Source: a virus | Direction: 5' to 3' (one strand) | Virus record (IMG/VR): IMGVR_UViG_3300023284_000226 | Location: 1 to 34,357 of that record | Length of the DNA: 34,357 nucleotides | In this document: positions 669-34,311 of the stretch, piece by piece | Numbering within the stretch: position 1 is the first letter of the stretch | Layout of the letters: each line of letters starts with the position of its first letter | The notes under the pieces: model-generated | Seen by the model: the letters and a program-made list of their open reading frames with translations, nothing else | What the model was told of the DNA's origin: nothing | Database searches by the model: none | Position numbers and translations under genes: made by a program

Positions 669-903
669 ACCACTGGTCTGCGCGTGCGGGCACGATAGTG
701 ACGAGCATTCCATGCTGCCATTGGTCGCATCCAAAGATGGGATACGTTTTGAGAAGATCTTAGGGCCATTCAGTGGGTATGTGGATGTTTACTGCCACGG
801 GGAGGACTGGGAGGACGGAGAACTCTGCGAATGTAGAGTCTACAAGGGAGACAAACTGATAACGGCGATCATCAACGGGTTAGATAGGAGGGATGACAGA
901 TGA
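661..903 (+). CDS. Small Cys/His-rich, probably zinc-binding protein, 80 aa
   Basis: The protein opens with CACGHDSDEH and later carries CHGEDWEDGELCEC, giving two Cys/His clusters of the sort that hold one zinc ion. Small proteins of this layout (C-x-C-G-H ... C-x-C) are common in tailed phages from metagenomes, but no function is known to me. The start at 661 overlaps the stop of the gene before it. An upstream in-frame ATG at 616 lies deep inside that gene and is less likely. The end of the gene contains one copy of the dispersed palindrome (832-844), read as CRVYK. Zinc binding is inferred from residue spacing only. Confidence 0.65.
   Translation: MPKPLVCACGHDSDEHSMLPLVASKDGIRFEKILGPFSGYVDVYCHGEDWEDGELCECRVYKGDKLITAIINGLDRRDDR
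832..844. repeat. Dispersed palindrome copy 1, TGTAGAGTCTACA
   Basis: Perfect arms TGTAGA / TCTACA around one central G. It lies inside the 661-903 gene, read in the frame TGT AGA GTC TAC. See the finding on the dispersed palindrome. Confidence 0.8.
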
Positions 904-1328
904 CGGACAAGAACATAGATAGGTTGGTTACGGGAGGGGCCTGCTTATACGTAGTACTGCTCATGGTCTACCTAGTGATAGTGTTGGCGAAAGGCATGGT
1001 ATTGTTGGCTGCGGAGCAGGAATCCATCCACATAGACGATCCTTTCCCGGTAACAGTCTACTATGACTCCGAAAACGAGCCCTACCTCTTAATAGAGACG
1101 GATTGGGCACAAATTGGGGTCCGAGAACTCATCATCTTCAATGACACCGATAACCAGGCATGGCAGCTCAAGGAAGTGCCCATGTCGTCCTCCCCTATAG
1201 AGCCACGCCGCCTCTTCTCTATAGATGATGGCGGGCAGCGCATATTCCGTATCCTGATCCGCGCAGAGGCAGGAACCGCCGAAATTAGAGGTATCTCCCT
1301 TATATATAAGGACGTGGCCCATGAATGA
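900..1328 (+). CDS. Single-pass membrane protein with an external beta-rich domain, 142 aa
   Basis: Residues about 11-38 form one strongly hydrophobic segment (CLYVVLLMVYLVIVLAKGMVLL), preceded by the charged MTDKNIDRL. This fits a signal anchor with the short N-terminus inside the cell. The remaining ~100 residues alternate polar and hydrophobic residues like a small beta-sandwich and would then be periplasmic. The start at 900 has an excellent AGGAGGG at 886-892 and overlaps the previous stop as ATGA, indicating translational coupling. I do not recognise the family. A role in lysis or in superinfection exclusion is possible from topology alone, without direct support. Confidence 0.65.
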   Translation: MTDKNIDRLVTGGACLYVVLLMVYLVIVLAKGMVLLAAEQESIHIDDPFPVTVYYDSENEPYLLIETDWAQIGVRELIIFNDTDNQAWQLKEVPMSSSPIEPRRLFSIDDGGQRIFRILIRAEAGTAEIRGISLIYKDVAHE

Positions 1329-1488
1329 CGGTGAAGATGAGACTGAGTGTGGGCAACCATGTGACCCAAATAACGCATGTGATGGGTGCTCGGAGTATTG
1401 GCAACGAATGGAGCGCGAGGACTATTGGAATAGAGCCCTACACCGCTGGACCGATAAGGGCTGGGCTCAAATAACACGGTCATGGTGA
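1321..1488 (+). CDS. Small Cys-rich protein, 55 aa
   Basis: ATG at 1321 overlaps the previous gene by eight bases and opens a frame of 55 codons ending in TGA at 1486-1488. The protein has a tight Cys cluster C-x3-C-x5-C-x2-C (CGQPCDPNNACDGC) at residues 10-23, followed by an aromatic, charged helix (EYWQRMEREDYWNRALHRW). The cysteine spacing suggests a metal-binding knuckle; the rest may be one amphipathic helix. No family is recognised. The in-register overlap, the Cys pattern and the lack of any competing frame support a real gene, although it is short. Confidence 0.55.
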   Translation: MNDGEDETECGQPCDPNNACDGCSEYWQRMEREDYWNRALHRWTDKGWAQITRSW

Positions 1489-3234: not shown

Positions 3235-3866
3235 GCAAATCAGAGGAAGCCCGAGCGTATTGCAACGGCATATCGTCAACGGCCAAGGGGCACTGTATCC
3301 CTATGGCCGACTTCATCACCGAGAACCCGGATCTAGACCTGGAAGATCTCGCACGACTGTATGGAGGGGAAACCTTGGCCTCGGCCCGTTCTCTCACCAA
3401 CCGGCTCATTGCCTGTGGATGGATCAGAGTAACCCTTCAAGGCAGGTTCAAAGCCATAAATCCCCGTCCCGACACGATGCCAGAATACGGGTGTCATCGG
3501 TATCCACGTATGGGGTACACAGTCTGTAACAATCATGGTGGCCTGTTCCCATCGGTCATCAAGAGTGCCGAATCTAATCTCCTCCACCTCGTAGAACCTG
3601 CCGTTGAACGCATCGGTGACACGATCAAGTACTCGGGCCATACCCCATCGGCCTTGAAAGCCTCCGAGGGACTGCTTGACCGGGTAGGAGTTAAAAAAAT
3701 AGAGGAGATTAAGGTCACTCATGGCATTGACAACAAGATGCTCAGTAATCTAGATGATGAAGAACTACGAACACTCTTATCGCTCCACCAGAAGCTCAAG
3801 CCCAGAGAAGATGCCACGGCAGAAGTCGGAGAGAAGCTCGGTATCGACATCCCCAAAGACTTCTGA
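3231..3866 (+). CDS. Terminase small subunit candidate, 211 aa
   Basis: Small terminases bind the packaging site and load the large subunit. The N-terminal ~75 residues look like a winged-helix domain (FITENPDLDLEDLARLYG ... LTNRLIACGWIRVTLQGRFKA). Residues 88-104 hold C-x10-C-N-N-H-GG, a C..C..HGG pattern seen in phage small-terminase-like proteins. Residues ~138-155 (TPSALKASEGLLDRVGVKK) match the A-x-E-x-LLDRxG helix found in many small terminases. The start at 3231 has AAGGAG upstream and ATGA coupling; the in-frame ATG at 3150 would add 27 residues read from the preceding gene. Position directly before the large subunit supports the call. A regulatory DNA-binding protein is the alternative. 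Confidence 0.65.
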   Translation: MSKSEEARAYCNGISSTAKGHCIPMADFITENPDLDLEDLARLYGGETLASARSLTNRLIACGWIRVTLQGRFKAINPRPDTMPEYGCHRYPRMGYTVCNNHGGLFPSVIKSAESNLLHLVEPAVERIGDTIKYSGHTPSALKASEGLLDRVGVKKIEEIKVTHGIDNKMLSNLDDEELRTLLSLHQKLKPREDATAEVGEKLGIDIPKDF

Positions 3867-4653
3867 TCTCCAATCTGATATCAGGATACTCAAACAGATT
3901 GTAGAGTCTACAGATCCGCACTCCGAGCCCTACTCCGTAGACGATCTGAAGAACGCGGGTGAGGATGATATACGCCGTGAACTCGACCGTCGAGCACGCC
4001 ATAAATACTTTGGGTGGTTCCCCGGATCGGGCAAGTACGCCCGTTCGGAGTATCTCAAGCACATGGAGTTCCTTGCCTCCGGGGATACCCACATTGAACG
4101 CCTCTTCTGTGCGGCTAACAAGGTAGGCAAAACCGAGACGGGCTCCTTTGAATGCACCGCGCACGCTACAGGCATATACCCGAAGTGGTGGCAAGGCAAA
4201 CGATTCGACCGCAATATCAACATCTGGGTCTGTAATAAGTCCTCGAAGGATGTAAAGGAAGTCAATCAGTTCTCGATGATGGGTGAGCCCGGTTCCGAGG
4301 GCACCGGCATGGTCCCCGGTCAACTCATCGTCAATACCACGAAGAAGCCCAACGTCCCCGAGGGCATTGACGTGGCCTACGTGAAATCGGCCTTCGGGAG
4401 CTTCTCTCGCGTAACCTACAAATCCTACGATCAGGGCCGTGAAGGGTTCCAGGGTCGTAATATTGACGTGATCTGGTGCGATGAAGAAGTTCCCGACGAC
4501 ATCTATACAGAGTGCCTCATGCGGATCATGACCACCGGGGGCATCATCCTCTGCACCTATACCCCGGTCATGGGGCTAACAGATGTGACCCTGAAGTTCC
4601 TCCCAGGTGGGAAGCTGCCCGATAAGCAAATCCCTATAGAGTTCACCGTATAA
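3811..4653 (+). CDS. Terminase large subunit, ATPase part (split gene), 280 aa
   Basis: This is the packaging motor ATPase. Seen: Walker A at about residues 101-111 (AANKVGKTETG), Walker B at 218-226 (IDVIWCDEE) and a coupling motif CTYTP at 248-252. The protein then stops after FLPGGKLPDKQIPIEFTV, just where full-length phage terminases enter the linker to the nuclease domain. The nuclease half is encoded separately at 6016-6741, and the two together give about 520 residues, a normal length for one large subunit. The start is uncertain: ATG 3811 (weak AGAG) or ATG 3754, both inside the small-terminase gene. One copy of the dispersed palindrome lies at 3900-3912. Confidence 0.85.
   Translation: MPRQKSERSSVSTSPKTSDLQSDIRILKQIVESTDPHSEPYSVDDLKNAGEDDIRRELDRRARHKYFGWFPGSGKYARSEYLKHMEFLASGDTHIERLFCAANKVGKTETGSFECTAHATGIYPKWWQGKRFDRNINIWVCNKSSKDVKEVNQFSMMGEPGSEGTGMVPGQLIVNTTKKPNVPEGIDVAYVKSAFGSFSRVTYKSYDQGREGFQGRNIDVIWCDEEVPDDIYTECLMRIMTTGGIILCTYTPVMGLTDVTLKFLPGGKLPDKQIPIEFTV
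3900..3912. repeat. Dispersed palindrome copy 2, TGTAGAGTCTACA
   Basis: Perfect copy inside the terminase ATPase gene, read in the frame GTA GAG TCT ACA, a different frame from copy 1. Confidence 0.8.
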
Positions 4654-4663
4654 GGAGAATGTG

Positions 4664-4978
4664 ATGGAAGTTTATTCAAACCCCGATGGTTCTACGACCA
4701 TGAAGATGGAGAAGGAACCCAACGAAAGGACTCTGGAATCCGTGAGCGTCAATGTCAAAGAGAACGGATTCGTAGTGTCCAAGCATTACACCTACGGGGG
4801 TGGGGACTACGGATACGAACCCCCGAAGGAGTACGTCACCAAGTCAGGCTATGAAGCCGCAATGTACGTGGCCCAGTGTCTCGGAGTATCCGCAGAGGAT
4901 ATGAAGATGATGATGGATGGTTCCCACGGCAGTTCTCACGATGGGGACTCCCACGCGAAGAACATGGGCAATTACTGA
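4664..4978 (+). CDS. Hypothetical protein within the terminase split, 104 aa
   Basis: First of five small genes between the terminase halves. AAGGAG lies directly on the preceding stop codon, giving a close ribosome site for ATG 4664 (a GTG at 4661 is also in frame). The first ~75 residues alternate as in a beta-rich fold (LESVSVNVKENGFVVSKHYTYGG, then YEPPKEYVTKSGYEAAMYVAQCLG). The C-terminus is rich in Met, His, Asp and Gly (MKMMMDGSHGSSHDGDSH) and could bind metal. I do not recognise it. The stop overlaps the next ATG (TGATG), indicating an operon. Confidence 0.65.
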   Translation: MEVYSNPDGSTTMKMEKEPNERTLESVSVNVKENGFVVSKHYTYGGGDYGYEPPKEYVTKSGYEAAMYVAQCLGVSAEDMKMMMDGSHGSSHDGDSHAKNMGNY

Positions 4979-5112
4979 TGCCCTACACAGCAAAGCAACG
5001 CCGAATGCTGGGTGCTGCCGCATCCGGTAAGAAGACCAAATCGGGCATCTCTAAGGCTACTGCGAAGAAGATGCTCAAACACAAAGGAGCCAAAAATGCC
5101 ATCCGAAAATAA
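4978..5112 (+). CDS. Very small basic protein, 44 aa
   Basis: The protein MPYTAKQRRMLGAAASGKKT... is short and strongly basic. It carries the KQRR-x-x-GA-x-x-SGK...G-x-S-x-x-x-AKKML layout of small phage proteins of unknown function, resembling by memory the DUF3008-type family. Basic charge suggests DNA or RNA contact. It starts on the stop of the preceding gene (TGATG), and its last codons overlap the next start. It is too short to rely on statistics, but the overlaps and the recognisable opening motif support it. Confidence 0.6.
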   Translation: MPYTAKQRRMLGAAASGKKTKSGISKATAKKMLKHKGAKNAIRK

Positions 5113-5332
5113 GAACGATAAAGCCACTGATCCTGCAACCAAGGGCGAGACCCACGGGATGCCCTCTAACGCCGAGACCGCATCCGACCGTGAAGGCCCC
5201 CTCACCATCGGTTCAGCCGTCAACACCCCGTCCACTACCTCCAATGACGTGTCCACCCTCATGGGTAAGGGCCAGGGACGGTTCAAGATCACCCCGTCCC
5301 AAGACAGCCTCGGTCGCCCAAAGGGGTTCTAA
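5096..5332 (+). CDS. Low-complexity hydrophilic protein, 78 aa
   Basis: ATG 5096 follows AAAGGAG at 5083-5089 at good distance. The protein is rich in Ser, Thr, Asn, Gly and Asp, has no Cys and no hydrophobic core, and ends in GRFKITPSQDSLGRPKGF. It is probably disordered. No family is recognised. The stop is directly followed by the next ATG at 5333, so it is part of the same small operon inserted between the terminase halves. Confidence 0.55.
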   Translation: MPSENKNDKATDPATKGETHGMPSNAETASDREGPLTIGSAVNTPSTTSNDVSTLMGKGQGRFKITPSQDSLGRPKGF

Positions 5333-5725
5333 ATGCCCCGAGAGGCACCATTCGGCATCTTCGTCCTCAACACCCGTGAGGATAGGAAGTTCTGGACGAA
5401 GATTGCGAAGCAGTCCGATAGATGCTGTCTGAGATGGCCGTCTTTCAGCGCCACCAGGAACAAGCACTCGGGCGAGTGGACTCTTCATGGCCCACGACCG
5501 GCCATCGAGAAGTTCACCGAAATAGCGGTCGCTGCCTCAGAGCGTTTAGGAGCTGTAGGACCATCGGAGTACAAGGTTCAGCGGTTCCTGAACGCTCTAC
5601 ATGATTTCCGCAATCCACCGGATAATCCCATACACAAGATGTTCGATGAGCCAGATGTGTCACGGTTCAAGGTCGTCACCACGGGGGATCGACTCATCAA
5701 GTCCGGTAGTGATGCCAACCTATAA
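5333..5725 (+). CDS. Hypothetical protein within the terminase split, 130 aa
   Basis: The ATG directly follows the previous stop. The protein looks like a compact alpha/beta fold: an N-terminal strand (GIFVLNTREDRKFWTKIA), a middle Trp/Arg-rich part with CC (SDRCCLRWPSFSATRNKHSGEW), an amphipathic helix (IEKFTEIAVAASERLG) and a C-terminal strand region. It has no homing-endonuclease motif (no HNH, GIY-YIG or LAGLIDADG), which matters because it lies in an interruption of the terminase gene. Function unknown. Confidence 0.6.
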   Translation: MPREAPFGIFVLNTREDRKFWTKIAKQSDRCCLRWPSFSATRNKHSGEWTLHGPRPAIEKFTEIAVAASERLGAVGPSEYKVQRFLNALHDFRNPPDNPIHKMFDEPDVSRFKVVTTGDRLIKSGSDANL

Positions 5726-5743
5726 GCAAAGGAGATAGTAAGC

Positions 5744-6016
5744 ATGAAGTCGATTCGATTAGAAACAGTGGATACGATGATAGACATCCTAAAACACGGG
5801 GATATTGATGAAATCGTATTGAGCAAGACCGCACACGAGTCATTTGTGGAGATCATGAAGGGGCTATTTGAACCTCAAAGTGAACCACCGTTATTCCTAC
5901 TAGGTGCATCCACAGATGTCCGAACATGTATAGGTAGAGAATGGAAACTCACGGATGACGGGGGTTCGATTGGTACAAGCCTGCGTGAGGAATTGTTTCA
6001 GACGCAAGAAGCGTAA
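5744..6016 (+). CDS. Hypothetical protein within the terminase split, 90 aa
   Basis: AAAGGAG at 5728-5734 precedes ATG 5744. The protein has an N-terminal helical half (MKSIRLETVDTMIDILKHGDIDEIVLSKTAHESFVEI shape) and a C-terminal half with a possible strand/turn layout. The gene looks more AT-rich in its third codon positions than its neighbours, hinting at a separate origin. Its stop overlaps the ATG of the terminase nuclease gene (TAATG), so nuclease expression may depend on translation of this gene. No family is recognised. Confidence 0.6.
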   Translation: MKSIRLETVDTMIDILKHGDIDEIVLSKTAHESFVEIMKGLFEPQSEPPLFLLGASTDVRTCIGREWKLTDDGGSIGTSLREELFQTQEA

Positions 6017-6796: not shown

Positions 6797-8950
6797 ATGT
6801 CGAAAGAACAGATAACACCGGGAATCCAAACCAGCAAAGTAGTAGACCGCGAGGCAGAGATAGAAGCTACGGGCCTTCCTGCCGAGCAGCAGTACCTTGC
6901 CATCGCCCGCACCCGTCTAAAACTAGCTGAGGAAGCCGAGGGCACGATTCGTAACTTCGCCGTCGAAGATCTCAAATTCTCCAACGGTGACCAGTGGCCC
7001 GACGAGATCCAGAACCAACGCTCCCAGGACCATCGTCCCGTCCTAGTAATAAACAAGCTCGGCCAGATGGTCAAGCAAGTCACCAACGATCAGCGCCAAA
7101 ACCGCCCCGCGATGAAGGTCTCCCCCGTGGATTCCGTAGCGGACCCCGAAGTGGCCGAGGTGCTCCAGGGAATATTCCGTCATATAGAAGTCCACTCGAA
7201 CGCCGATGTAGCCTATGACATCGCAACCGACTTCCAAGTCCGCCAAGGCTGGGGTTATTACCGAATCCTCACCCAATACGAGTCCCCCACGTCCTTTGAC
7301 CAAGACATCCTCATAAAACCCATCAAGAACCCCTACTCGATCTACTTCGACCCTTCGGCTCAAGAAATCGACTATTCAGACGCCCGTTGGTGCTTCGTGA
7401 CCGACTTCATACCCATATCCGAGTTCAAGGACCTGTATCCGAACTCTGAACTCGTAGATACCGAGATCTTCTCCACCATGGGGAACCAAGCTCCCGGATG
7501 GGCCACGAAGGATGCGATTCGAATAGCCGAGTACTTCTGGAAGGAGATGGTTCCTAGAGATCTCGTTAAGCTGGCATCAGGGGTCATCATGTTCGCGGAG
7601 CAGATCCCGGATACACACCGGCTTCTGCCTGAGTTCCAAGTCGTACAGACACGTAAGACCCACGTCCCCCAGGTCCATTGGGACAAGATCAATGGCGTCG
7701 AGCGCCTTGAGGAAACCATGTGGCCGGTACCTCACATCCCAGTCATCCCGGTCCTCGGTGAAGAGGTCTGGATCGATGGTGAGCGCACCCTCAAGGGCCT
7801 AGTACGTGATGCCAAGGACCCACAGCGGATGCTCAACTACTGGCGTACCGCGACCACTGAGATGATCGCCTTGGCCCCCAAAGCCCCATGGGTGGCCGCA
7901 GAAGGCCAGCTTGAAGGCCATGAAGAGGAATGGAAACAGGCTAACGTCCGCAATCTCGCCGTCCTACAGTACAAGCCCATCTCCGTCTCCGGTCAGCCCG
8001 TACCCCCTCCACAGCGCAATGTTGCCGAGCAACCAATCCAAGCCATGGTTATGGCCTCCCAACTGGCCGACTCCGACATGAAGGCCGTCACCTCTATATA
8101 TGACGCCTCCCTTGGTGCCAAGTCCAACGAAACATCTGGCCGTGCCATCGTGGCCCGTCAGCAACGTGGTGAACTCGCAAACTTCAACTTCATAGACAAC
8201 CTATCCCGCTCTATCAGATACGCTGGCACCATCCTGCTCGAACTCGTTCCCATCATCTACTCCCCCAAACGAGTAGCACGCATCATTGGTGAAGATGAGA
8301 AGCCAGATGAAGTGTCGATCACTACCGATTCCGCACAGCCTGCTGTGCAGGAAAAGGCAGACTCCAGCGGTAAGATCCAAAAGATCTACAACCTTGGAGT
8401 CGGCAAATACGATGTCGTAATCTCCATCGGCCCATCCTACCTAACTAAGCGCCAGGAAGCCTTCGACCAGCTCACAGCCTTCGTGAACGCATACCCGGCA
8501 CTGATGCAGGTTGCTGGAGATCTCATCTTCGAGAATGCCGATACCCCAGGCGCGGCTCAGATCGCCAAGCGTCTGAAGAACTCCCTCCCACCGGGTATTG
8601 ACGATGACGAACCTCAGCTCCCACCCGAGGTTGTCGAGCAGCTCCAGCAGTTACAGACTGCCCTACAGCAAGTCCAGGGCGAACTCGACAAGAAGACCCG
8701 GATCATCGAGGGCAAGGTTGTAGAGTCTACGAACGCGCACGATATGAAGATGGCCGAAATTGCTTCCGAGGAGAGATTGGCTGGTATCCGTGCTCTGACA
8801 GAGTTGGTGAAAGTCAAGTCCAAGGAAGGACAAGTAATTTACGCATCAGCAGCCGAGGCGCTTCTGGCTGATCTAGAAGCCCTACGGCGACCCGGACCTG
8901 TAGAGGGGGCACCTAAGACGCCCGTCTCAGCAGGGACGAATGGCACATAG
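6797..8950 (+). CDS. Portal protein, P22 gp1-like, 717 aa
   Basis: Portal proteins form the dodecameric ring through which DNA enters and leaves the head. Length (717; P22 gp1 is 725) and the N-terminal block fit the P22-type portal family (WPDEIQNQRSQDHRPVLVINKLGQMVKQVTNDQRQNRPAMKV, split here over residues ~68-111). The middle includes NPYSIYFDPSAQEIDYSDARWCF. The end (~residues 610-690) is a Gln/Glu-rich coiled coil (VVEQLQQLQTALQQVQGELDKK), matching the helical barrel of P22 portals. The start at 6797 lacks a strong Shine-Dalgarno site but fits the family. It stands between terminase and scaffold, as expected. Dispersed palindrome copy 3 is at 8719-8731. Confidence 0.92.
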   Translation: MSKEQITPGIQTSKVVDREAEIEATGLPAEQQYLAIARTRLKLAEEAEGTIRNFAVEDLKFSNGDQWPDEIQNQRSQDHRPVLVINKLGQMVKQVTNDQRQNRPAMKVSPVDSVADPEVAEVLQGIFRHIEVHSNADVAYDIATDFQVRQGWGYYRILTQYESPTSFDQDILIKPIKNPYSIYFDPSAQEIDYSDARWCFVTDFIPISEFKDLYPNSELVDTEIFSTMGNQAPGWATKDAIRIAEYFWKEMVPRDLVKLASGVIMFAEQIPDTHRLLPEFQVVQTRKTHVPQVHWDKINGVERLEETMWPVPHIPVIPVLGEEVWIDGERTLKGLVRDAKDPQRMLNYWRTATTEMIALAPKAPWVAAEGQLEGHEEEWKQANVRNLAVLQYKPISVSGQPVPPPQRNVAEQPIQAMVMASQLADSDMKAVTSIYDASLGAKSNETSGRAIVARQQRGELANFNFIDNLSRSIRYAGTILLELVPIIYSPKRVARIIGEDEKPDEVSITTDSAQPAVQEKADSSGKIQKIYNLGVGKYDVVISIGPSYLTKRQEAFDQLTAFVNAYPALMQVAGDLIFENADTPGAAQIAKRLKNSLPPGIDDDEPQLPPEVVEQLQQLQTALQQVQGELDKKTRIIEGKVVESTNAHDMKMAEIASEERLAGIRALTELVKVKSKEGQVIYASAAEALLADLEALRRPGPVEGAPKTPVSAGTNGT
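8719..8731. repeat. Dispersed palindrome copy 3, TGTAGAGTCTACG
   Basis: The 11-base core GTAGAGTCTAC is perfect; the last outer base differs (G for A). It lies inside the portal gene in the frame GTA GAG TCT ACG. Confidence 0.75.
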
Positions 8951-13536: not shown

Positions 13537-16500
13537 TGCGATTCGGATTCGTAGGACCCACCTATACGCCAGACTCTCCCAGTGCCGACCTTCAGCGAAC
13601 GGTCAATTACTATCCCGAGATAGTGGAGTCCCGAGCAGGTAAGGGTCCTATCTCCATGCTCCCGACACCGGGCCTCAAGGCCCTGTGGGATCTCCCCGAG
13701 GGTCCGATCCGTGGAATGCACTCTGAGGCCGCAGCAAAGCTTGTCAACGACCGGGTATTCGCTGCTGCTGGTACGCGCTTCTACGAGATCTTCAACACTC
13801 TAGACCCCGTAACCGGATTCAATACCTTCACCGACCATGGATTCATCGGTAATATCGAGGGTGACAAACGTGTCCACATAGTCTCGAACCGTTTTGAACT
13901 TTTCATAGTCTCCGATGCCTGCGGGTACATCTTCGACCTCCGCGATAACACACTCTCCTTCGTCACGCAAATCGAAAAACCGGACAGTGCTCAGTTCCTA
14001 GACGGGCACTTCGTCGCGCATCAGCGTGGAACCCAGCTCTTTTTCATCTCCGCTCTATTCGATGGCAAGAAATGGAACGCTCTGGACTTCGGTTCCGCAG
14101 AAGCCGCTCCCGATGACATTGTTCAGATCGTCTCGGATCATGACGAACTCTGGATCATGGGCTCACTCTCGATCCAGGTCTATGCCAATACCGGTAACTT
14201 CCAATTCCCCTTTGAGCGCATCCCCGGTGCCCGGTTCGAGCAGGGTATCTGGGCCAAAGAGACCGCATCCCAGCTCGACAACGGTGTGTTCTGGCTTGGA
14301 GGGGACGACCGGGGCAAAGACGTATTCTGGCGTGCAGACGGATACCGTGCCCAGCGTATCTCCGACCACTCCATCGAGTCCGCGATGTCGAAGATGCCTA
14401 CTACACAGGATGCCATCGCGTGGCCGCAGCTTGAGAAGGGGCATCCCTTCTACTGGGCATACTTCCCGCTGGCCGATCAGACTTGGGTCTATGACGTGTC
14501 CATCAATATGTGGCACGAGCGGGGTTGCTGGAATACTGACGAAGCCATCTATCAGGCCCACCATGCACGCAACCACACCTTCGGGTTCGGTATGCACTTG
14601 GTTGGGGACCGTGGTGGTGACTGTTGTACTGGAGCAGGTTCCGGCGTGATCACACCTCCCGATCCTGAAGATTTACAGTTGGGCATCTCTGCACTGGTCC
14701 CCCTACGGACCCACGTTGCCAACATATTCCTCCTGGACGATTTCAACTCCGTATACACCAACCAGCCAATGGTCTTCGACCCTGCCATCTACAATGGCGT
14801 CGTCGGGATCGATTTCCACATCACGGCTGAATACCAGTCGGGGGCACTAGCCGGTCAGTACCAGATCGTAGACTCTACAGGTAAGGTCTGGGCCGAGGCC
14901 ACATACGATCCTGACGATAACATTGGCAATCCCATAATCCGCACGGTGCCCTTCTCAGAGATCCCAACCGTCCGAACCCCACTCTTCGTGAAAACTACCC
15001 GTCCAACGGGGTCCACTGCCTTTATGAACTCCTACGATCTCCAGATCGTATTGCACCTGGAGGACTGCACCAAGTTCCAGATCGAGTGGCCTTTAGTCTC
15101 CGGTGACCAGTCCACGGGCGGTGGTGTCTCCGACAACGAACGCTTTAGCTACTGTGAAGACTTCCAAGGTGGTGGGCACTCCGGTGCCTTCGAGCACTAC
15201 AACGATGGCACCAAAAGGGCGTATCACTCCACCCGATACCTCCTAGAAAGAGACAAGCTAGGCAACATCCCCGCGAACGGATGGACTCTGGAGATCTCTA
15301 TCCAACTCAACGACTCCGAGCGTGCTTCTGGAGACCCCCTGGCCCCAGGTATAGACCCCACGACCGACTTCTTCATGGAGGCCGTCTTATGGGACGTGGA
15401 CGCCAACACCGAGGTCACCGGCACCAAGATACGAGTCGATTATGCAGACGCAGCAGATGCGGCCATCATGCGTGCCAACTATGTCTTAGGTACGGACCCC
15501 TCCGATACCAACGGAGACATCATCAAGTCCGTCTCTTGGTCTGATGGCCTCCTCGGGTTCACCCCTGGCAACCAATACGAAATACGGTGGAAACCATCTC
15601 TTGCTACTGACGCCCGAAGCAATAGAGCATTCTGCAAGATCTTTTACGCCACCCTAAAATACAAGATAGACGCCAGTGCAGAAGGTTCATCCTCGGCGGC
15701 TCAGATCCCTCTCCGTGTTGGCAACGAAATTAAGGGCAACCACTCGGGTGCAGGCGGTCCTGGCTCCACCCTCTGGAACGACGACGTTCGCTGGTTTCAC
15801 CGACCCGCCCTGTTCCTGGATGACACCAAGTTCTATATGGAAGGCATCGGCATGGAGACGGGTGGCACCGCAGAGCAGCGGCTCAACACCCATGGCCTCA
15901 GCGACCAGGGCACCTCGACCGTGGGTGGGCACCCATCCGCCAACGCTATCATCACTGGAACTGAGTACGATCCCGACGTGCCCACGCCTAAGCAGCTATC
16001 CGGTGAGTGGGTTCGGCCCGAGAACATAGAAGACGGTCCTATCGCTGGTGCTGAACCGGGTGTGTCCGTACAGATGCTCGAAGAAGGTGTAGACAACCAC
16101 ATATTGGAAGGGAAGAACTTCAGGCAGTGGATAGACGGGCAGAATGAGAACATCCCCTTCAATGAAGCACTCCTCCCTATAGTGGAGCCCATCAACACCG
16201 TGGAGATCGGACTGACCTTTGCGATCACCGTACCCAGGACGCCCATCTTGACAGAAGCCTACTTCCCAGGAACCTCGGTCGGTGAGATCGTCACCCTCCA
16301 GGTCGGTACAGCCAGTGTGCTCCTGGCGGCAGGCAATACCGAAGTATCCATCTACCCGCGTCTTGCCGGTACGGACCACCCATCACCTCTAATCATCACC
16401 TCCCAACCCGGACAAACCCTCGTCGGTCTACTGCCGAACCAGTTCATTATCATATACTCCGGGTTCTCCGCGAACTTCACACGGCCCGGTGGTGGATCGT

Positions 16501-18059: not shown

Positions 18060-18577
18060 GCTTCATAATATGCGACGAGGAACTGGTAACTGTAGAGCCT
18101 ACAAACAACCTAAAACTCGTGAAGTTGACCATGACCGATGAAACTCTGTACGATCTCATCACTGATGACTTCTCTCCTACGGTGGAGGAGTTCGAGCCTT
18201 CAGCGCACCCTGACGTTGTATACCTGCTATGCCGTGATTGGGATAAGAATCCATTCGGACTCTTTATGTTGGTGCCTCGTAATGGCATAGAGCTACAGGT
18301 ACACAACTATTTGCTCCCATCATCTCGGGGTCCTAAAGCTCAAGAAGCTGCACGTCAGGCCCTAAAGTGGATATGGACCTACACTTGCTACCTTAGAATC
18401 ATCGGTGTCACGCCTTCATACAACCGTCGAGCATTGAAGTTTGCCACCGACGTAGGCATGAAGCAATTCGGAGTGGATAAACGCAGTCTCATGAAGAACG
18501 GAAAGCTGTACGATCAGATCTATACAGGGATAAGTAAACCAGTCGATATCGAAGAAGGAGAATTTCATGGGAATTGA
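18056..18577 (+). CDS. gp14-like GNAT-fold protein, 173 aa
   Basis: Order and build match P22 gp14, a non-virion assembly protein of the DUF2824/acetyltransferase-like group that acts before the injection proteins. The middle strand VYLLCRDWDKNPFGLFMLVP, the following ELQVHNYLLPSSRG and the C-terminal PSYNRRALKFATDVGMKQFGVDKRSLMKNGKLYDQIY resemble the beta4, beta5 and N-x-x-A-x-x-F-A...G-F layout of GNAT domains. The acetyl-CoA P-loop (Q/R-x-x-G-x-G/A) is not clear, so enzyme activity is doubtful. Overlaps of four and eleven bases with its neighbours suggest coupling. A degenerate palindrome copy is at 18091-18103. Confidence 0.7.
   Translation: MSFIICDEELVTVEPTNNLKLVKLTMTDETLYDLITDDFSPTVEEFEPSAHPDVVYLLCRDWDKNPFGLFMLVPRNGIELQVHNYLLPSSRGPKAQEAARQALKWIWTYTCYLRIIGVTPSYNRRALKFATDVGMKQFGVDKRSLMKNGKLYDQIYTGISKPVDIEEGEFHGN
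18091..18103. repeat. Dispersed palindrome variant, TGTAGAGCCTACA
   Basis: One base differs from the consensus; the TGTAG/CTACA arms are complete. It lies almost exactly midway between copies 4 and 5. Frame GTA GAG CCT ACA within the gp14-like gene. Confidence 0.6.
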
Positions 18578-20708: not shown

Positions 20709-23700
20709 TGGCACAAGTAAACTTCGAGGAACTACTCCCCACACAAAACGAGTTGGAGAACCAGGACACTCCACCTGCTCCCGGAGCTGAATTCTCGCAG
20801 TTCCTTGCCCCCGGCTCCGAGACCACTGATACCCGCGAGGAACTCGAAAAGGGTTTGCTGATGACCGTCTTGGGTGGCCTCGACTATGTAGGAGGTAAGA
20901 ACCGAGGACTCATTCGGGGTATGTTCGGTGGAGACTTTTCAGATACGGCTCCCTTTTCCAGAGATACTACCGACCCAGGCCATGCCCTCGGGTTCCTAGC
21001 GCCCGGTGGCGGGATCATCCCAGAGGCACGTCCAACGGCCCCTACGATACCGGGTATTCCGGCCTTCCAGCCGATTACGGAGTTCATAAAACATGTCCCG
21101 TCCACCACCCTCGGTATAGCTCTTGACATCTTTACCGATCCACTGACCTTCATTACTGGAGGAGCAGGCAAGGGCATCCAGTACGGTCTCGGAGGTGTTA
21201 AAGCCACTATCATCTCCGCACGTCAGCTTGCTCGTGCCCGTCGTGTGGCTGAAACCATAGCAGGCCCGGTGACCCAGACCCGTGCCGCACAGGCCATTGC
21301 CTCTGGTGCTCGTAGAGTCTACAACGCAGCAGACGAGCTTGTGATATCCAAAACTACCCGAACCGACGACCTTGGAGCTATAGCCAGGAAGCAGAGAGAT
21401 CTGGATTTTCGAAAGAGTGCTATGGCCAAAGAGGTTTACCAGTCCCATATGGCGGTCCTCCGGTCGCAGGAGAATCTGATCTCAAAGTTTGGAGATGAAG
21501 CCACCTCCGGGGACATCATGTCTATCCTCACAGATGCTATGGAGAAGAAGCCTACCGGGCCTGTGACGTTCAATCATCCTAAACGTGCCGACATTCTGGC
21601 CGACACCGATGCCCGAGCGATAATCGACGAACTGGGTCCTGGATATCGGGAGCTGCGTGAGTTTGAGCTGGCTAACGACATCGCTTCCCCCGACTTCGGT
21701 ATGGCCCGTGAATATAAAATAGGTGATCTCTCGGATAAGATTGATGAGATGAAGTCCCGTCGTGAAGGCGACATAATGACGTACTTTCAGCGTATAGAGA
21801 AGGAGTCCCTTCGAACTATGAGGTACGCCGATAAGGAGATCAAACGTCTATCCGGCCCAGCCTTCCGTGACCTCCCCGAGACTAACGGTGCCATCACTCA
21901 GATGAATAAGATGAAGTTCGAGGCCAGAGATCGTATGGATGATATCCGTATCCGTGTGGGTGAGCGCATACAGAACACCCCATCCTACATGCAGCGCGTT
22001 GAAGATCGTATCTTCCAACAGCGGGAACTTCAAAAGATCGATCCGAATTATGTCCCGCACTCCTTCACCCCGGAGGCGAAGACGGCATACTATAAGCTTA
22101 ACCGCAGAGCATTTGGTGGATTCATACGTCGCCGTACCTTCTCCGAGTCCCACACGTCCCAGCTTAATCGTCAACTCCTCGATGATGGGAAGAAGTACCC
22201 CACCGCAGCCGAGTTTAATAAGGCCGGTCACGAGGGTAAGGTTTCGGCCTTTGGTAATAAAAAGCTCGACTTCAATATCTTCGAGACTGATCCTATCCGT
22301 CTCTCTATTGACCGTCAGCTTCGTGGCCTTCGAACTATAGAGAACACCCGCTTCTTGAAGGATGTGGCTCGCAACTATGGCGATACCATCGACGATATCG
22401 TGGAGAAGACGGGTGCAAACATTGATGATGTCCGTACCGCAATCCGAGAAGGTGAGAAGTATGGGCGGATGACCTTGAAAGACGGCACGATGTACAAACA
22501 GGGCAAAGCCGCATCCCTTGGCGAAAAATGGTTTGACCCGGAGATAGCGGACCATCTGGATTACTACAATAAGGTATCTACCAACCCGTCCGATATGAAT
22601 CGCTGGTTAAGTGTCTTTGATGGCGTGACCAACTACTGGAAGGGCAAGACCCTTATGCTGTTCCCGGCCTACCACTCACGCAACGTGGCTGGCAATGTTT
22701 GGAACAACTTCCTCGCGGGTGTCGCTCATCCCAAATGGTACTCCAAGGCCGACGAAATCCAGCGTGGTGCAGCAGGTAACGTGGGGGACTACTCCTACGA
22801 TCAGATCCGGGAGATGATTCGCACCAACGGTGTCGAGAACCAGGGCTGGTACAGTGCTGACATTGAGCGGTCCATTCATACTTCTATAGCCGATACGCAG
22901 TCTGTCTGGGATACGATCTCGGATGCCAAGCTAAAAGACTGGAATCCCTTCAAGCTCGATCATACCGATGTGTGGTCTACCACGGGCCGCAAGGCTGGCA
23001 CCTATTTGGAGAACAACGCACGGATAGCCAACTTCGCCCATGGTCTCCAGAATGGTCTCGATCCCGATGCTGCCGCACAGCGGGTTTTCAAGTACGTGTT
23101 CGACTATGGAGATGTCACCAAGTTCGAGAAGGATGTATTGCTCCGTATCATGCCATTCTACCGATGGACACGATTCAACATCCCTCTTCAGGCCGAGCAG
23201 CTCATCAAGCAGCCCGGTAAGTTCATGGCCATCTACCATGCCAAGGAGGGTATCGAAGCCCGTCAAGGTAACGAACCTGTAGAGGAAGCCCTGGTCTCCG
23301 AATATATCAGTGAGAACATCGGCATACAGTGGCGTCGATACAGTGACGAAGAAGGCCGTGATCGTGCGTCCTTCTTCCTCCTCGGGAACTGGCTCCCCGC
23401 AGCAGACCTGGACAATCTCTCGGGCCTGTCTCGTTTCACTGAAGAAGCCGTGGCCATGGTAAACCCGCTCCTCAAGACCCCCATGGAGCTGCTCGCCAAC
23501 TACGATACGTTCCGCAAGCGGCCCATCGAGCGTATTGTCGATCCACGGCGGGACACCGCGTCGTTCTTCAACCCGACCGGCGGGGAGATGGGAGAGTTCC
23601 TCGGCATCCCCATGCGTCAGAAGTGGGAGCACACGATCCGAAACGTCCGTATCCTATACGAGATAGATCGCTCGAACCCGTACAACGTCAACAATGCAGT

Positions 23701-25708: not shown

Positions 25709-25721
25709 TGTAGAGTCTACA
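25709..25721. repeat. Dispersed palindrome copy 6, TGTAGAGTCTACA, between genes
   Basis: A perfect copy and the only one outside a gene, five bases after the stop at 25703 and about 100 bases before the next gene. This placement would suit an operator or other protein-binding site. Confidence 0.8.
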
Positions 25722-25820: not shown

Positions 25821-26276
25821 ATGCCGAAGTATGCAGCAGACGGACAAGCAGCGAACACCGCATCTACCTCCATCATGGGAGTGGATGCAGGTGCCACTGC
25901 TCGACGTGTAAAGGTCTATGACCTGATCGTCGGTTCGGATGCCACCCCGGCTGACAACGCAGCAGAGTACAACTTGCAGCGTTATACTGTCGATGGCACT
26001 CCGGGCACCGCAGTCGTTCCTAAGCCTCTGGACTTTGCAGATCCAGCAGCTCTAGCCGATGCGGGTGAGGGGGTCTACACCATTGAACCCACCTACACTG
26101 CTGATGAGATCATGCTCAACTGGTCTCAGAACCAGCGTGCGACATTCCGCTGGGTAGCAGCCCCAGGTGGCGAGATCGTGTGTCCCGCAACCGCCGACTC
26201 CGGTGTGGGCGTCCAGTCCATCACCGTGGCCGGTGCCGCAGTTAACACTACCTCTCAAATTCACTTCGAGGAGTGA
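25821..26276 (+). CDS. Predicted virion decoration-like protein, 151 aa
   Basis: AAAGGAG at 25807-25813 precedes the ATG. The protein (YAADGQAANTASTSIMGVDAGATARRVKVYDLIVGSDATPADNAAEYNLQRYTVDGTPGTAVVPKPLD) has the composition of a small beta-sandwich. The motif (R)V-K-V-Y-D-L-I-x-G-S-x-A-T-P-A-D-N-A-x-x-Y/x-x-x-R-x-T are positions I recall from abundant structural proteins of uncultured tailed phages. The closing block QRATFRWVAAPGGEIVCPATADSGVGVQ supports the same group. It is probably an external particle protein. The next gene follows after 12 bases. Confidence 0.65.
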   Translation: MPKYAADGQAANTASTSIMGVDAGATARRVKVYDLIVGSDATPADNAAEYNLQRYTVDGTPGTAVVPKPLDFADPAALADAGEGVYTIEPTYTADEIMLNWSQNQRATFRWVAAPGGEIVCPATADSGVGVQSITVAGAAVNTTSQIHFEE

Positions 26277-28707: not shown

Positions 28708-30591
28708 ATGACAATGACTGTGAACAGTCTTATCTTAGTTCTTCTTATCTCTATTCTGACCACGCCCGTATATGCCCAGATGGAGTACTACGTTGACAAG
28801 ACGGCTTCCGGGGCATCGAACTCCAACGACGGTCTATTCATGACGGACATGGGTGGTGGTATGGGACCGTGGCTGACCATTGGCCAGTGCAATGCGGAAC
28901 CAATCATGGCGGGTGACAACTGCAATGTTTTAGACGGTGAGTACGATGAGGCGGTGTCGATCACGATAGACGGGTTGGTGGCGTCTCGGATTCAATATTT
29001 GGCTACAACGGGAGTGGAAGCGCGGGAGTTTTTGCTAACGGGAGATTACGTCACCATCAATAATTTCATCATTACGAACGTTGGCATGACGCCTGATTTT
29101 TCCCGCAGTGTCGATATTACGGTAGCGGCCTTGGTGCCCCACATCACGAACAACACGTTTCAGCACACATCCAGCGCGTGTCTTCGGACGGCAGCAGATG
29201 ACACCATAATTCGGGGAAACACGATGTCGTATTGTGGAGAGCACAACAGCATCTTCGGGACTGACATTACGAGTTTCACCGTGACGGCTGGTGTAGACGA
29301 TCAGGTGACTTACAACGTGGAAGGTGGGATGAATGACACGATTACGTTACCTGCTGGAGCTGTCGGTGCTGCCCAACGTGCTGCTTTTAAAACGACGGTC
29401 GATGCTCTGTTGACCGGCGCAACGATAGAGTTTGGCGGGTTCGGCAATTTTGAGCTGCGGTCGAGCCAAGCAGGTCCGTCGTCTGACATTGAATTGGTTG
29501 CGGTGGCAAACGACGGCTACGCGCACTTCGGGTGGACTGTAGGTGATGGCGTGATGCAGGGTGTCCTTGTTGCTATCCAGAGCGATGGTTCTGGGGTATC
29601 CGGCGTTCTCGTGGAAGACAACACCCTCAGTTTTATCAGCGACTTCTCTCAAAATAGTGGGGGGGATAATCGATGGACGTACAGGAACAATATATGGGGT
29701 CCGAACGAGTCTCAGACCGCAGTCCACAATGATTTCATGCAGGCTGGAAGCAACGTAACTGAATTTTTAGTCGAAGGCAACACGATTACGACTCAGAGCG
29801 GCGGTGATAATCACCTGTCCTTGTGGCAGCAGACTTCAGAAGACCACTTCATCTGGCGCTATAACGAGACGTTTCTGAGCAAGGGGACAGTAGGATGTGA
29901 CCGAAACAATGATACAAACGGCGACCCCGGCTGTTATATGTACAACAACACATACTTCAATTCCGGCGATTTCATGAGTGCCAACGAACGAAATTTGTTC
30001 ACGAACATGGCAGACAACAACTTCGGAGCTAACAATATCTTCTACAATTCCACGGCTTCGGGTGAAAGTCCCTACAGCACGGTCGGGGCCGATGTTGTTA
30101 AAGACTTTGATCTATGGTTTGCGGGTACAGGCGACCCCATAGAAACCAACGACGTGAACGCGGACCCATTGTTTGTGGATGGGCCGAATGGAAACTTCAA
30201 TCTAACACCGAGTTCGCCAGCAATTAACGCGGGAGGTCATTTGACGACGGTAGCTGTGGCGGACACCGGAAGTGGCACATCTCTTATTCTCAATGACGCC
30301 AATATGTTCCAAGACGGGTGGGGTGGAACAACTCCAGACATGATTGCCGTTGGAACTGTTACGAATACAGTGGCGATCATTTCTATAGTTTACGCGACCA
30401 ACACAATCATGATAGCGAGCGGCATTTCACGCTCTGACGGTGAGAACGTATGGTTGAAGGCCAAGTCTGATGGTGAGGTAGTGTTGAATGGGGCCGCGCC
30501 CGACATCGGCGCGTTTGAGTCAGGGGCAGGGCTTACCGCTGTGGCCCCTGGAGTATTTAGCAGCGTACTTTTTGGAGGAGCAGTGAGATGA
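28708..30591 (+). CDS. Secreted right-handed beta-helix protein, 627 aa
   Basis: Residues 1-23 are a signal peptide (hydrophobic SLILVLLISILTT, then PVYAQ). The mature protein starts YYVDKTASGASNSNDGL and has the DG-Y-E/D...I-x-I...Y-x-x-I-x-N-F-x-I rungs of parallel beta-helix proteins (TGDYVTINNFIITN; ITNNTF; IIRGNTMSYC; EGNTIT). It closes with DPLFVDGPNGNFNLTPSSPAINAGGH, typical of pectate-lyase-like folds. Such folds are used by tailspikes to bind or cut polysaccharide. Catalytic residues cannot be assigned. AGGAG lies upstream of ATG 28708. The gene is AT-rich like its neighbour. A signal peptide on a would-be spike is odd. Confidence 0.75.
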   Translation: MTMTVNSLILVLLISILTTPVYAQMEYYVDKTASGASNSNDGLFMTDMGGGMGPWLTIGQCNAEPIMAGDNCNVLDGEYDEAVSITIDGLVASRIQYLATTGVEAREFLLTGDYVTINNFIITNVGMTPDFSRSVDITVAALVPHITNNTFQHTSSACLRTAADDTIIRGNTMSYCGEHNSIFGTDITSFTVTAGVDDQVTYNVEGGMNDTITLPAGAVGAAQRAAFKTTVDALLTGATIEFGGFGNFELRSSQAGPSSDIELVAVANDGYAHFGWTVGDGVMQGVLVAIQSDGSGVSGVLVEDNTLSFISDFSQNSGGDNRWTYRNNIWGPNESQTAVHNDFMQAGSNVTEFLVEGNTITTQSGGDNHLSLWQQTSEDHFIWRYNETFLSKGTVGCDRNNDTNGDPGCYMYNNTYFNSGDFMSANERNLFTNMADNNFGANNIFYNSTASGESPYSTVGADVVKDFDLWFAGTGDPIETNDVNADPLFVDGPNGNFNLTPSSPAINAGGHLTTVAVADTGSGTSLILNDANMFQDGWGGTTPDMIAVGTVTNTVAIISIVYATNTIMIASGISRSDGENVWLKAKSDGEVVLNGAAPDIGAFESGAGLTAVAPGVFSSVLFGGAVR

Positions 30592-31241
30592 CAATAATGA
30601 AACGACTGGCACTTACCGCAACACTGGTTCTGTTCACCCACACCTCTGCCTTTTCCCAGTGCGAGGCTGTGAAGTCCTTGGGGGATTTGTGGACGTTCAC
30701 GGTCAATACGCATAACGTCTCTACCGGCGTGGCGACAGATGCCGACTCCGTGCCCTCCTACCGGATCTATGAGGAGGAGACAACCGCTCCTATACTGACC
30801 GGCACCATGGCCCTGCTGGATAGTGTCAACACGGCTGGCTTCTACAGTGAACAGGTGGCCCTGAGCACGGGTAACGGCTTCGAGATGCTGAAGTCTTACA
30901 GTGTCTACATCTCAGCTACGGTATCTACTATCACCGGCACCAAGTCCTGTGGTGTGAGTCTAAGCGCGTTCCGTACAGCACCTAGAGGAGTGGCCTACAA
31001 CAACTTCCAGTTCGCCGGGTTCAGTACGGCCACTGGGTCCCCCCAGACCGGACTGACATTTGCATGTAGAGTCTACAAAGACGGTACGGGTGCCAACTGC
31101 GCCAATCCCGTTGCCGAACTTGCGGAGGGACTCTACGACGTAGATCTAACGGCAACCGAGTTTGATGGGGAGTCCATATCATTAATACTCACGGCACCTG
31201 GGGCCACAGATGTCATCCAGCACTTCCGAACCCAGCAGTAA
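30588..31241 (+). CDS. Secreted two-domain beta protein, 217 aa
   Basis: Residues ~4-23 form a signal peptide (MKRL, hydrophobic LTATLVLFTHTSAFS, then Q). The mature part has two beta modules: residues ~30-125 (WTFTVNTHNVSTGVATDADSVPSYRIYEEE...ILTGTMALLDSVNTAGFYSEQVALSTGNGFE) and ~130-217. The first resembles Ig- or BppU-like modules of phage adsorption proteins (N-x-STG-x-x-x-DADS-x-P-x-Y-x-I-YE). Start 30588 overlaps the previous stop as ATGA with GGAGGAG upstream; an in-frame ATG at 30597 would trim three residues. Palindrome copy 7 lies at 31065-31077. Confidence 0.7.
   Translation: MTIMKRLALTATLVLFTHTSAFSQCEAVKSLGDLWTFTVNTHNVSTGVATDADSVPSYRIYEEETTAPILTGTMALLDSVNTAGFYSEQVALSTGNGFEMLKSYSVYISATVSTITGTKSCGVSLSAFRTAPRGVAYNNFQFAGFSTATGSPQTGLTFACRVYKDGTGANCANPVAELAEGLYDVDLTATEFDGESISLILTAPGATDVIQHFRTQQ
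31065..31077. repeat. Dispersed palindrome copy 7, TGTAGAGTCTACA
   Basis: Perfect copy inside the gene of the secreted two-domain protein, read TGT AGA GTC TAC (CRVYK), the same reading as copy 1. Confidence 0.8.
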
Positions 31242-32099: not shown

Positions 32100-32115
32100 A
32101 GCACTCTAATCACCG

Positions 32116-34311
32116 ATGTACGATCATCCTAAGTTTCAATACGACTCAGTAGTCGAGCCTGTTCTCACTGAAGCTGCGGCCCCGGTGCCGGATCAGTACT
32201 ATCAGGTCACTCATGAAGGTCCAGGTGTCTGGCCTAAGCGTGTCCTCTCAAGCGCGATCATGGCCGGGTGCTGCTTCATGTCCCCTGATCCGATCCCCGA
32301 CGCCGAAGCCACCGACCGGCCCGACAAGTGGCACGCCGAATACCCGGATCAAATACTCCCACAGCACCAGACCCGTACTGGCACCTATACGGTTACTGAT
32401 CCGATCATCCTTGACATCCCCATCGACCGCTGGGAACCCCAGTTCCCCGACATACTATTACCGCGCCATCTAGCACGTCCTGGGATATTCATCATCGATC
32501 CAGACCAGTTCGCCTCGGAAGAGGCGGTTTCTATAGACCGATACGAACCTCAATTCCCAGACATATTACTTCCCCAGCATCAGACCCGTCCGGGTCTATT
32601 CACCATAGACGCTGACCAACTCACCCAGCCAGAGACTTCATCTATAGACAAGTGGGCACCCGAGTATCCTGACCTTCTATTACCCAGTCATCAGACCGGC
32701 ACGGGGATATTCGTCACTGATCCTACGATCCTGGTTATCCCACTGGATCGCTACGAGCCCTTATACCCCGACATCCTCCTCCCACGTCATTTGACTCGTG
32801 TTGGACTGAAGGTTGTAGATCCTACAGTTCTCACACAGATTGAGGTCACCACTGTTGACCGCTGGGAACCCCAGTTCCCCGATCTCCTTCTGCCACGTCA
32901 CCAGACGGGCACGGGATGGCAAACCATCGATGCCTCCCACCTCTTGGATGCTGAGGATGCCACTGTCCTCTCGAAGTGGGAGCCTCAGCTTGAGATGCCG
33001 ATATGGCCTGCCAAGAGACTGGTCCCCGGTCAGACGGATTTAGATCCATTCCCGCGCCCAGCAGGCGTGTTTGTCTTCTCAGACTGGCACACGGAGTACC
33101 CGGATCAGTTACTACCCCGGCATCAGGTCCGTCCAGGCATCAACATAGTCGATGCAGACCAACTGATCCAGCCCGAGGCTGTCAGCTTCGATCGATGGTC
33201 ACCTCAGTACCCTGATCTTCTCCTCCCGCGTCATCAGACCCGTACCGGATGGTCCGTTGTTGACCCTGACCAGCTCACACAGACAGAAGTCACGACCGTA
33301 GACAGGTGGGAACCCCAGATACCCGATATCCTCCTCCCACGTCATCAGGTTGTTGAAGGCTTCACCATTGATGCGAACTTCGCGGGCGAGATCGTTGAAG
33401 CGATCCGACTCGATAAGTTTGAGCCTCGCCTCTTCATGCCGGTATGGCCACGGCATCAAACCCAGACAGGACTATGGATCACAGACCCCTCGCACCTCCT
33501 TGATGATCAGCGGCCTATAGAGCTGGACAAGTGGAAGCCACACCTCCCCGACTTCGCACGGACCCGTGAGCCTATCGTCCACGGCGAGACGTTCGTAGAT
33601 CCCGAGTCCCTCTCTACAGTCGAGGAAGTCACTATTGATCGGTTCGAGCCTCAGATACCCGACCTGTTGCTCCCGCGTCATCAGGTCAGGCCGGGTATCT
33701 GGATTGTCGATGCGGATCAACTGACTCAAGGTGAGTCCATCACCATAGACAAGTGGGAGCCTAACTTCTCAGACATCGTGTGGGCTCGTCCACACCTCTC
33801 ACGAATCGGCCTGAAGGTCATTGATCCTGATTCCTTCCTAGAAGTCGAGGTTACTACACTCGACCGTTGGGAGCCTCGCGGCTTCATGCCAGTATGGCCA
33901 CTCCATCAGGTCCGTCCTGGTCTGAGTGTGATCGACGCCGTGATACTCACCCAGCCCGAGGTCACCTTCCTATCCAAATGGGAGCCTCACCTCGAAGTCC
34001 CAATGCTTCCACCCCATCAGGTACAGCCGGGAATTAGTGCATTCGACCCAGAGCCGATCCTCGTACTGGAATCACTTCTAGACGGATGGGAGCCTCGTGG
34101 ATTCGTACCTGTCCTACGTCGGCACCAGACGATACAGGGTGGACAGCAGACATTCGACTTTGAGCCTGTACCTCCAGTATTTGGGTGGAACCTCACCACC
34201 AGTGGCATCGTCGGCAGTAAGGGATTCTTACTGGCCGGTACGGTTATCGCATCGGGTCTGATGGAGAGGCCACATAGGCATGAAGAGATGGGGCTCCCAC
34301 TTCGACAGTAG
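32116..34311 (+). CDS. Fibrous protein with about 17 WEP-PD-LLPRHQ repeats; 3' end unreliable, 731 aa as read
   Basis: After an N-terminal ~70 residues without a repeat, the protein consists of ~17 units of 33-38 residues. The consensus is D-R/K-W-E-P-Q-x-P-D-L/I-LLPRHQ-x-R-x-G, then a strand-like I-D-P/A-D-Q-L, then Q-x-E-V-T-T-V. Some units are degenerate (for example FMPVWPRHQ and FARTREP). No coiled coil or signal is seen. Such a solenoid or beads-on-string protein could be a fibre shaft or a surface adhesin; I know of no function. The stop at 34309-34311 and the last ~17 residues lie in an inverted fold-back (see 34233-34357), so the real gene probably continues beyond 34260 with more repeats. 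Confidence 0.75.
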   Translation: MYDHPKFQYDSVVEPVLTEAAAPVPDQYYQVTHEGPGVWPKRVLSSAIMAGCCFMSPDPIPDAEATDRPDKWHAEYPDQILPQHQTRTGTYTVTDPIILDIPIDRWEPQFPDILLPRHLARPGIFIIDPDQFASEEAVSIDRYEPQFPDILLPQHQTRPGLFTIDADQLTQPETSSIDKWAPEYPDLLLPSHQTGTGIFVTDPTILVIPLDRYEPLYPDILLPRHLTRVGLKVVDPTVLTQIEVTTVDRWEPQFPDLLLPRHQTGTGWQTIDASHLLDAEDATVLSKWEPQLEMPIWPAKRLVPGQTDLDPFPRPAGVFVFSDWHTEYPDQLLPRHQVRPGINIVDADQLIQPEAVSFDRWSPQYPDLLLPRHQTRTGWSVVDPDQLTQTEVTTVDRWEPQIPDILLPRHQVVEGFTIDANFAGEIVEAIRLDKFEPRLFMPVWPRHQTQTGLWITDPSHLLDDQRPIELDKWKPHLPDFARTREPIVHGETFVDPESLSTVEEVTIDRFEPQIPDLLLPRHQVRPGIWIVDADQLTQGESITIDKWEPNFSDIVWARPHLSRIGLKVIDPDSFLEVEVTTLDRWEPRGFMPVWPLHQVRPGLSVIDAVILTQPEVTFLSKWEPHLEVPMLPPHQVQPGISAFDPEPILVLESLLDGWEPRGFVPVLRRHQTIQGGQQTFDFEPVPPVFGWNLTTSGIVGSKGFLLAGTVIASGLMERPHRHEEMGLPLRQ
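32323..34190 (+). repeat. Tandem coding repeats, about 100-115 bases per unit
   Basis: About 17 units in a row. The most conserved DNA lies over the codons for WEP, PD and LLPRHQ (for example CTCCTCCCACGTCATCAG-like stretches). The units diverge enough to show they are old and under protein-level selection rather than a recent array. Confidence 0.8.
32814..32826. repeat. Dispersed palindrome variant, TGTAGATCCTACA
   Basis: Two central bases differ from the consensus, but the TGTAG/CTACA arms are complete. Frame GTA GAT CCT ACA. It may be a chance product of the repeat codons V-D-P-T, so it is less certain than the other copies. Confidence 0.45.

Follow-up and report, generated by a model that had tools for sequence, protein, structure and literature searches.

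A 13-bp palindrome dispersed over a P22-like virus fragment as a candidate landing site for a KorB-like orphan ParB

Gene content of the window and its nine palindromic sites

The stretch of DNA analysed here, called the window, corresponds to a full IMG/VR record (34,357 bases, no end repeats according to its classification). It carries the genes of a P22-like podovirus, namely a terminase in two parts and the portal, scaffold, coat, head-closure and DNA ejection genes, followed by genes of no known function. No gene for replication, integration, lysogeny or regulation was recognised in the 34,357 bases, parB and HTH genes being likewise absent among those called, and tRNA and Rfam searches of the window gave no match. 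Since an integrase and repressors are encoded by relatives of 34–40 kb, Xanthomonas phage PBR31 among them, whereas the window has no gene of these kinds, we regard it as a fragment, and a reader of the sites described below, if phage-encoded, must therefore lie outside it.

The large terminase (3754–6741) is found in two pieces, an ATPase half at 3754–4653 (PF03237) and a nuclease half at 6016–6741 (phrog_5653), set about 1.36 kb apart by small ORFs that had no Rfam match and, for those searched, no Pfam match. In PBR31 and other relatives the terminase is single and intact, unlike that of the window, where the interruption is possibly an intron, an insertion or a genuine split.

A preliminary description, made from the sequence alone, had reported seven GTAGASTCTAC cores and two variants spread over the whole virion cluster. 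Every one of them was recovered: exact cores at 833, 3901, 8720, 14868, 21312, 25710 and 31066, and two copies one base off that keep the arms only, TGTAGAGCCTACA at 18091 and TGTAGATCCTACA at 32814. The spread over the cluster was also right, with the proviso that the nine sites are counted over a 34-kb fragment of virion and neighbouring genes and not over a whole phage. As 13-mers, which have no strand, the sites are as follows.

832..844, no strand: site TGTAGAGTCTACA, exact, within ORF 616-903, CRVY frame
3900..3912, no strand: site TGTAGAGTCTACA, exact, within the terminase N-terminal-half ORF 3754-4653, VEST frame
8719..8731, no strand: site TGTAGAGTCTACG, 1 mismatch, within the portal gene 6797-8950, VEST frame
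14867..14879, no strand: site CGTAGACTCTACA, 1 mismatch, within the head-closure gene 13536-16799, VDST frame
18091..18103, no strand: variant TGTAGAGCCTACA, within ORF 18056-18577, VEPT
21311..21323, no strand: site CGTAGAGTCTACA, 1 mismatch, within ORF 20708-24037, RRVY frame
25709..25721, no strand: site TGTAGAGTCTACA, exact, intergenic, between ORFs 25242-25703 and 25821-26276
31065..31077, no strand: site TGTAGAGTCTACA, exact, within ORF 30588-31241, CRVY frame
32814..32826, no strand: variant TGTAGATCCTACA, within ORF 32116-34311, VDPT

Compared with TGTAGA-N-TCTACA, and ignoring the central base, each of the nine differs at no more than 1 of 12 arm positions, and the window holds no further site with exactly two arm differences. 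This palindrome is the top over-represented inverted repeat of the window. Permuted half-sites used as a control gave a mean of 0.18 sites at ≤1 mismatch, and dinucleotide shuffles of the window predicted 0.00 copies of the 12-mer GTAGASTCTACA. The excess over chance also withstood the codon-preserving shuffle that had been proposed as a check, 300 runs yielding 1–3 cores against the 7 observed, one core in every run being the intergenic copy, which was left untouched. An even spacing, previously suspected, was confirmed (more even than random, p 0.001–0.003). The argument that the use of two reading frames sets protein conservation aside stood in part: the peptides specified by the coding copies are indeed of two kinds, V[ED]ST and RVY, but exactly two frames are used because the third puts a TAG stop in frame. 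On the sense strand the central base was G in 7 of the 8 G/C cases (7 G:1 C). The dispersed 13-mer palindrome running through the particle genes is confirmed as real, beyond what dinucleotide content, encoded protein and codon usage provide.

Relatives of the window, identified through the portal and terminase at up to 50% identity, were drawn from viral and genome collections. The core was absent from the whole records of 8 and of 37 relatives, and 28 more relative records held no exact copy. At the portal site (8719), six aligned relatives lacked both the peptide and the site. Because the relatives lack the core and encode other portal peptides, the site is, on sequence grounds, most likely an acquisition of the window's lineage.

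No convincing palindromes of their own, analogous to that of the window, were found in the P22-like relatives. Hits in three contigs (L018, L101 and L119) look like intergenic or host repeats, the hit in G004 is a tandem array, and near-sites in L157 lost significance once the number of records was allowed for. In G004, the closest portal relative, a degenerate 12-base tandem repeat, GATCCCNGACCT, lies at both contig ends (L054 1-400; L055 near its end), which suggests a circular genome cut within the repeat array. Contig L018 contains many GGGCTTTAGCCC and GGCACG-N8-CGTGCC palindromes, probably repetitive intergenic elements of the host.

The same site in a second group of viruses and its association with ParB

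When the viral collection was scanned for exact 14-mers, most matches were single and due to chance, and five records stood out by their whole-record counts, given here for the pattern scan.

G511, 61,217 bases: 24 sites at ≤1 mismatch
G520, 61,963 bases: 21 sites at ≤1 mismatch
G546, 63,318 bases: 7 sites at ≤1 mismatch
G555, 58,628 bases: 12 sites at ≤1 mismatch
G562, 63,561 bases: 8 sites at ≤1 mismatch

These viruses of about 60 kb contain 5–20 dispersed exact copies of the 13-mer per record and constitute one family, with 17–35 proteins in common at roughly 40–55% identity. No protein homology was detected between the window and G511 at an E-value of 1e-2, nor between the window and all five at 1e-3. 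Their genes suggest a temperate lifestyle and replication functions of their own, G511 encoding a family A polymerase, a helicase, a terminase and tyrosine integrases, several of which have homologues across the family. G511 also encodes, in its virion region (L338 12381-15596), a 1071-amino-acid protein whose C-terminus resembles phage ADP-ribosyltransferase families (phrog_3895, 2e-12).

A homologous, divergent orphan ParB is encoded by 5/5 of the viruses found by the motif. As these belong to one family, they are not independent evidence for a link with ParB, and the test lies in records selected by ParB. A scan of the viral collection with the ParB alignment only recovered the five and three new records, which carry 11, 4 and 2 sites at ≤1 mismatch against 0 for the reversed control. 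In a de novo palindrome count, the top over-represented palindrome contained TGTAG...CTACA or its core in all eight viruses. The window variant TGTAGAGCCTACA is the commonest 1-mismatch variant in the ParB viruses (6 copies), and TGTAGATCCTACA occurs once. In G566, the third of the new records and among the more divergent members, TGTAG-N3-CTACA is present ten times with varied centres and GANTC is absent from most sites. The earlier suggestion of a CcrM-type GANTC methylation site is disfavoured, this centre being lost from the window copies at 18091 and 32814 while G566 retains the arms around other centres.

Genes of the ParB viruses were called by a simple script, and with these crude calls about 72% of the sites lie fully within genes; 25/89 do not, as compared with 10% non-coding sequence, which corresponds to an enrichment outside genes. 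Spacing was again more even than random (combined p 3e-5 over the eight viruses). The polarity hinted at by the window and by a first look at G511 was rejected, the central base on the sense strand being G in 46 and C in 38 of 84 sites (p 0.45).

The window having no close relative, the conservation of synonymous positions that the preliminary description had proposed to examine was assessed in the ParB viruses. In gapless comparisons at orthologous codons, a site at ≤1 mismatch was kept in 48 of 164 cases (29%), as against 2.6% for random 13-mers taken from the same genes. When all four amino acids were identical, 30/44 sites were kept, compared with 19% of the controls. Conservation was bimodal, a site being either kept or gone. 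Intragenic sites in these viruses are maintained at orthologous codons beyond protein constraint.

The ParB family belongs to PF02195, and its PDB profile matches include Spo0J (3e-23) and KorB (9e-10). An AF2 model (pLDDT 72.8) resembles ParB, Noc and KorB chains, the best target-normalised TM among the full ParB chains listed being 0.73, for KorB in the KorB-KorA complex; the Foldseek superpositions have a large rmsd, leaving the domain arrangement uncertain. The GxRR box is present in 7/8 proteins and reads GGGR in G555. In the ENxxR motif, Glu is replaced by Ala in 4/8 (G546, G562, G565 and G566), and CTP handling may therefore differ in these four.

Directly before parB, a small HTH gene (PF01381) was found in 8/8 viruses. 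It is as conserved as ParB in presence and operon position, though its sequence is weakly conserved between members. In 5/8, the HTH start is preceded at 50–152 bases by a 13-mer, where chance predicts 0.38 cases (P about 5e-6 with a 200-base window picked after seeing the data); such a promoter placement is what autoregulation of the HTH-parB operon would predict. Next to this operon, 7/8 viruses share a conserved gene (L462 14973-16160 and orthologues) whose product is a P-loop protein in several of them and is not ParA-like; the G520 version has a C-terminal ArsR-like HTH match. This neighbour may belong to the module as its third component.

A proposed clamp landing site and the alternatives

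Taken together, the even dispersal of the palindrome, its co-occurrence with ParB in eight viruses, its codon-level conservation and its promoter placement in 5/8 argue, at the level of sequence, for 13-mers that are the binding or loading sites of a phage KorB-like orphan ParB produced from an autoregulated HTH-parB operon. We give this reading a probability of roughly 0.6. As the same palindrome is scattered in an unrelated phage family whose members all carry a KorB-like ParB, the 13-mer most probably serves as the point at which a phage DNA-binding clamp lands, one that silences or organises the viral genome as a whole. A ParB dimer would load at each 13-mer, close as a CTP-dependent clamp and slide outward. 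Given a site every 2–6 kb, sliding clamps could reach and cover the greater part of the genome, and it is from this even spacing that silencing or organisation is proposed. Together with the HTH partner, the clamps would repress transcription, compact the genome, or both.

The site of a dimeric protein, possibly a small HTH or ParB-like one with sites in its own promoter, had been suggested from the window; such proteins do fit in the other viruses, and the window itself has no such gene. Its phage would encode the HTH-parB operon in the part outside the fragment. This ParB was found in none of the P22-like relatives examined, and with no parB or HTH gene in the fragment either, the link between window and ParB rests on the identity of the site. 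The wider picture, in which a P22-like podovirus and a family of about 60 kb with integrases share one 13-bp site, ParB-CTP clamps loaded every few kilobases coat the prophage so as to silence it or package its chromatin, and selection keeps the sites at synonymous positions, is put forward tentatively, at slightly less than even odds.

ParB rather than the HTH protein is taken as the presumed reader. The sites might instead be operators of the XRE-type HTH protein, acting as a conventional dimeric repressor similar to CIR of phiC31 or MrpR of SPbeta, with ParB working elsewhere or as a co-repressor. The gene before parB in all eight viruses and the site at its promoter in five are what this proposal would predict, but about 72% of the sites are intragenic whereas MrpR sites lie in promoter regions (PMC10516654), the site is constant whereas the HTH sequence varies between members, and a 13-bp odd palindrome with a central S is of the KorB operator type and not of the even KorA type (PMC2680271). 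We consider this explanation rather unlikely.

It appears less probable still that a nucleoid, segregation or modification protein of a shared host reads the palindrome in both virus groups. The occurrence of one site in two groups with no detectable homology would be accounted for in this way, and a comparable 13-mer with the core AGASTCT, likewise dispersed and mostly within genes, is recognised by the archaeal protein SegB (PMC12284271). However, ParB alone predicts the site, and the P22-like relatives are devoid of it. In 396 genomes of Acidobacteriota, a phylum to which one of the best provirus-like matches belongs and which may not be that of the window's host, the 13-mer had 4 matches in total against about 16 for the reversed control, so that a host-wide chromosomal motif is rejected for Acidobacteriota only; the core was absent from 12 genomes in which relatives of the window's portal occur. 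The ParB family had no member in the 396 Acidobacteriota genomes (best match 94 bits, an ordinary ParB), nor in 392 genomes from another phylum, to which a Planctomycetaceae MAG belongs.

Two further possibilities raised in the preliminary description appear very unlikely. Stoperators of the L5 type, asymmetric repressor sites that halt elongating RNA polymerase in a direction-dependent manner, would agree with many 13-mers over late genes and with the G bias of the window, but L5 sites lie at promoters or in short intergenic gaps and lose function on reversal (PMC9283540), whereas those described here are palindromic, mostly intragenic and unbiased at the centre over 84 sites. A genome-spread partition centromere for an extrachromosomal prophage, resembling the dispersed parS of N15, would account for a ParB family protein with many sites; nevertheless, classical partition is unsupported because neither the deviant Walker motif of ParA (KGGxGK[ST]) nor a ParA-binding motif ([LFI]G[KR]G[LFI]) was found among the proteins called in the eight viruses, and most of these viruses carry tyrosine integrase genes, which points to chromosomal integration.

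Comparison with known systems

Phages and prophages often encode orphan ParB proteins, for most of which neither targets nor function are known (PMC12704722). One such family would now gain a defined candidate DNA target with codon-level conservation. Long-range silencing by a sliding clamp, demonstrated until now for KorB on RK2, becomes testable as a mechanism acting on a whole prophage, and a specificity common to unrelated phages would lead one to expect cross-immunity or regulatory cross-talk where they share a host.

No description of the exact 13-mer was found in the literature, the nearest lead being SegB. Its sites in the Sulfolobales SegAB system, TCTAGASTCTAGA, are dispersed 13-bp palindromes, over 80% of them intragenic and others in the operon promoter, and SegB bridges DNA (PMC12284271). 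The two kinds of site have TAGASTCTA in common; SegB, however, has a ribbon-helix-helix fold and belongs to archaeal chromosomes, whereas the viruses encode a ParB-fold protein and no SegB-type gene came up among the proteins scanned; the likeness is probably a convergence.

Chromosomal parS sites are of 16 bp and lie near the origin, and Noc sites are on chromosomes. The phage system resembles them in the ParB/Noc fold and in its dispersed sites, which in the case of Noc organise DNA, and differs by a 13-bp, phage-borne site and the lack of ParA. The stoperators of L5, asymmetric, bound by a monomer, oriented with transcription and placed at promoters or in short intergenic regions (PMC9283540), are comparable as numerous 13-mers across a phage genome, late genes included, and in the idea of silencing. 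SPbeta likewise has dispersed repressor sites on a prophage, the 15-bp SPBRE sites of MrpR, a recombinase-fold repressor, which are located in promoter regions (PMC10516654).

The closest parallel is the KorA-KorB system of the IncP-1 plasmid RK2. The KorB operator O_B, TTTAGCSGCTAAA, is a 13-bp palindrome with a central S, TTTAGC(c/g)GCTAAA (PMC2680271), and KorB acts as a CTP clamp able to reach promoters as far as 1.5 kb away by sliding, where KorA locks it (PMC11790492). Both systems combine a palindrome of this length and centre, a ParB-fold protein (the putative reader in the phages), a small HTH partner, an operon that is autoregulated in RK2 and apparently so in the phages, and dispersed operators. 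In contrast to O_B, the phage half-site is TGTAGA instead of TTTAGC (4/6 bases in common), the sites lie mostly inside structural genes and evenly over the genome, the HTH partner is of the XRE type (HTH_3, Pfam), no IncC/ParA was found and the identity between ParB and KorB is low. By analogy, the phage system would work like KorB, and we do not file it as RK2 KorB.
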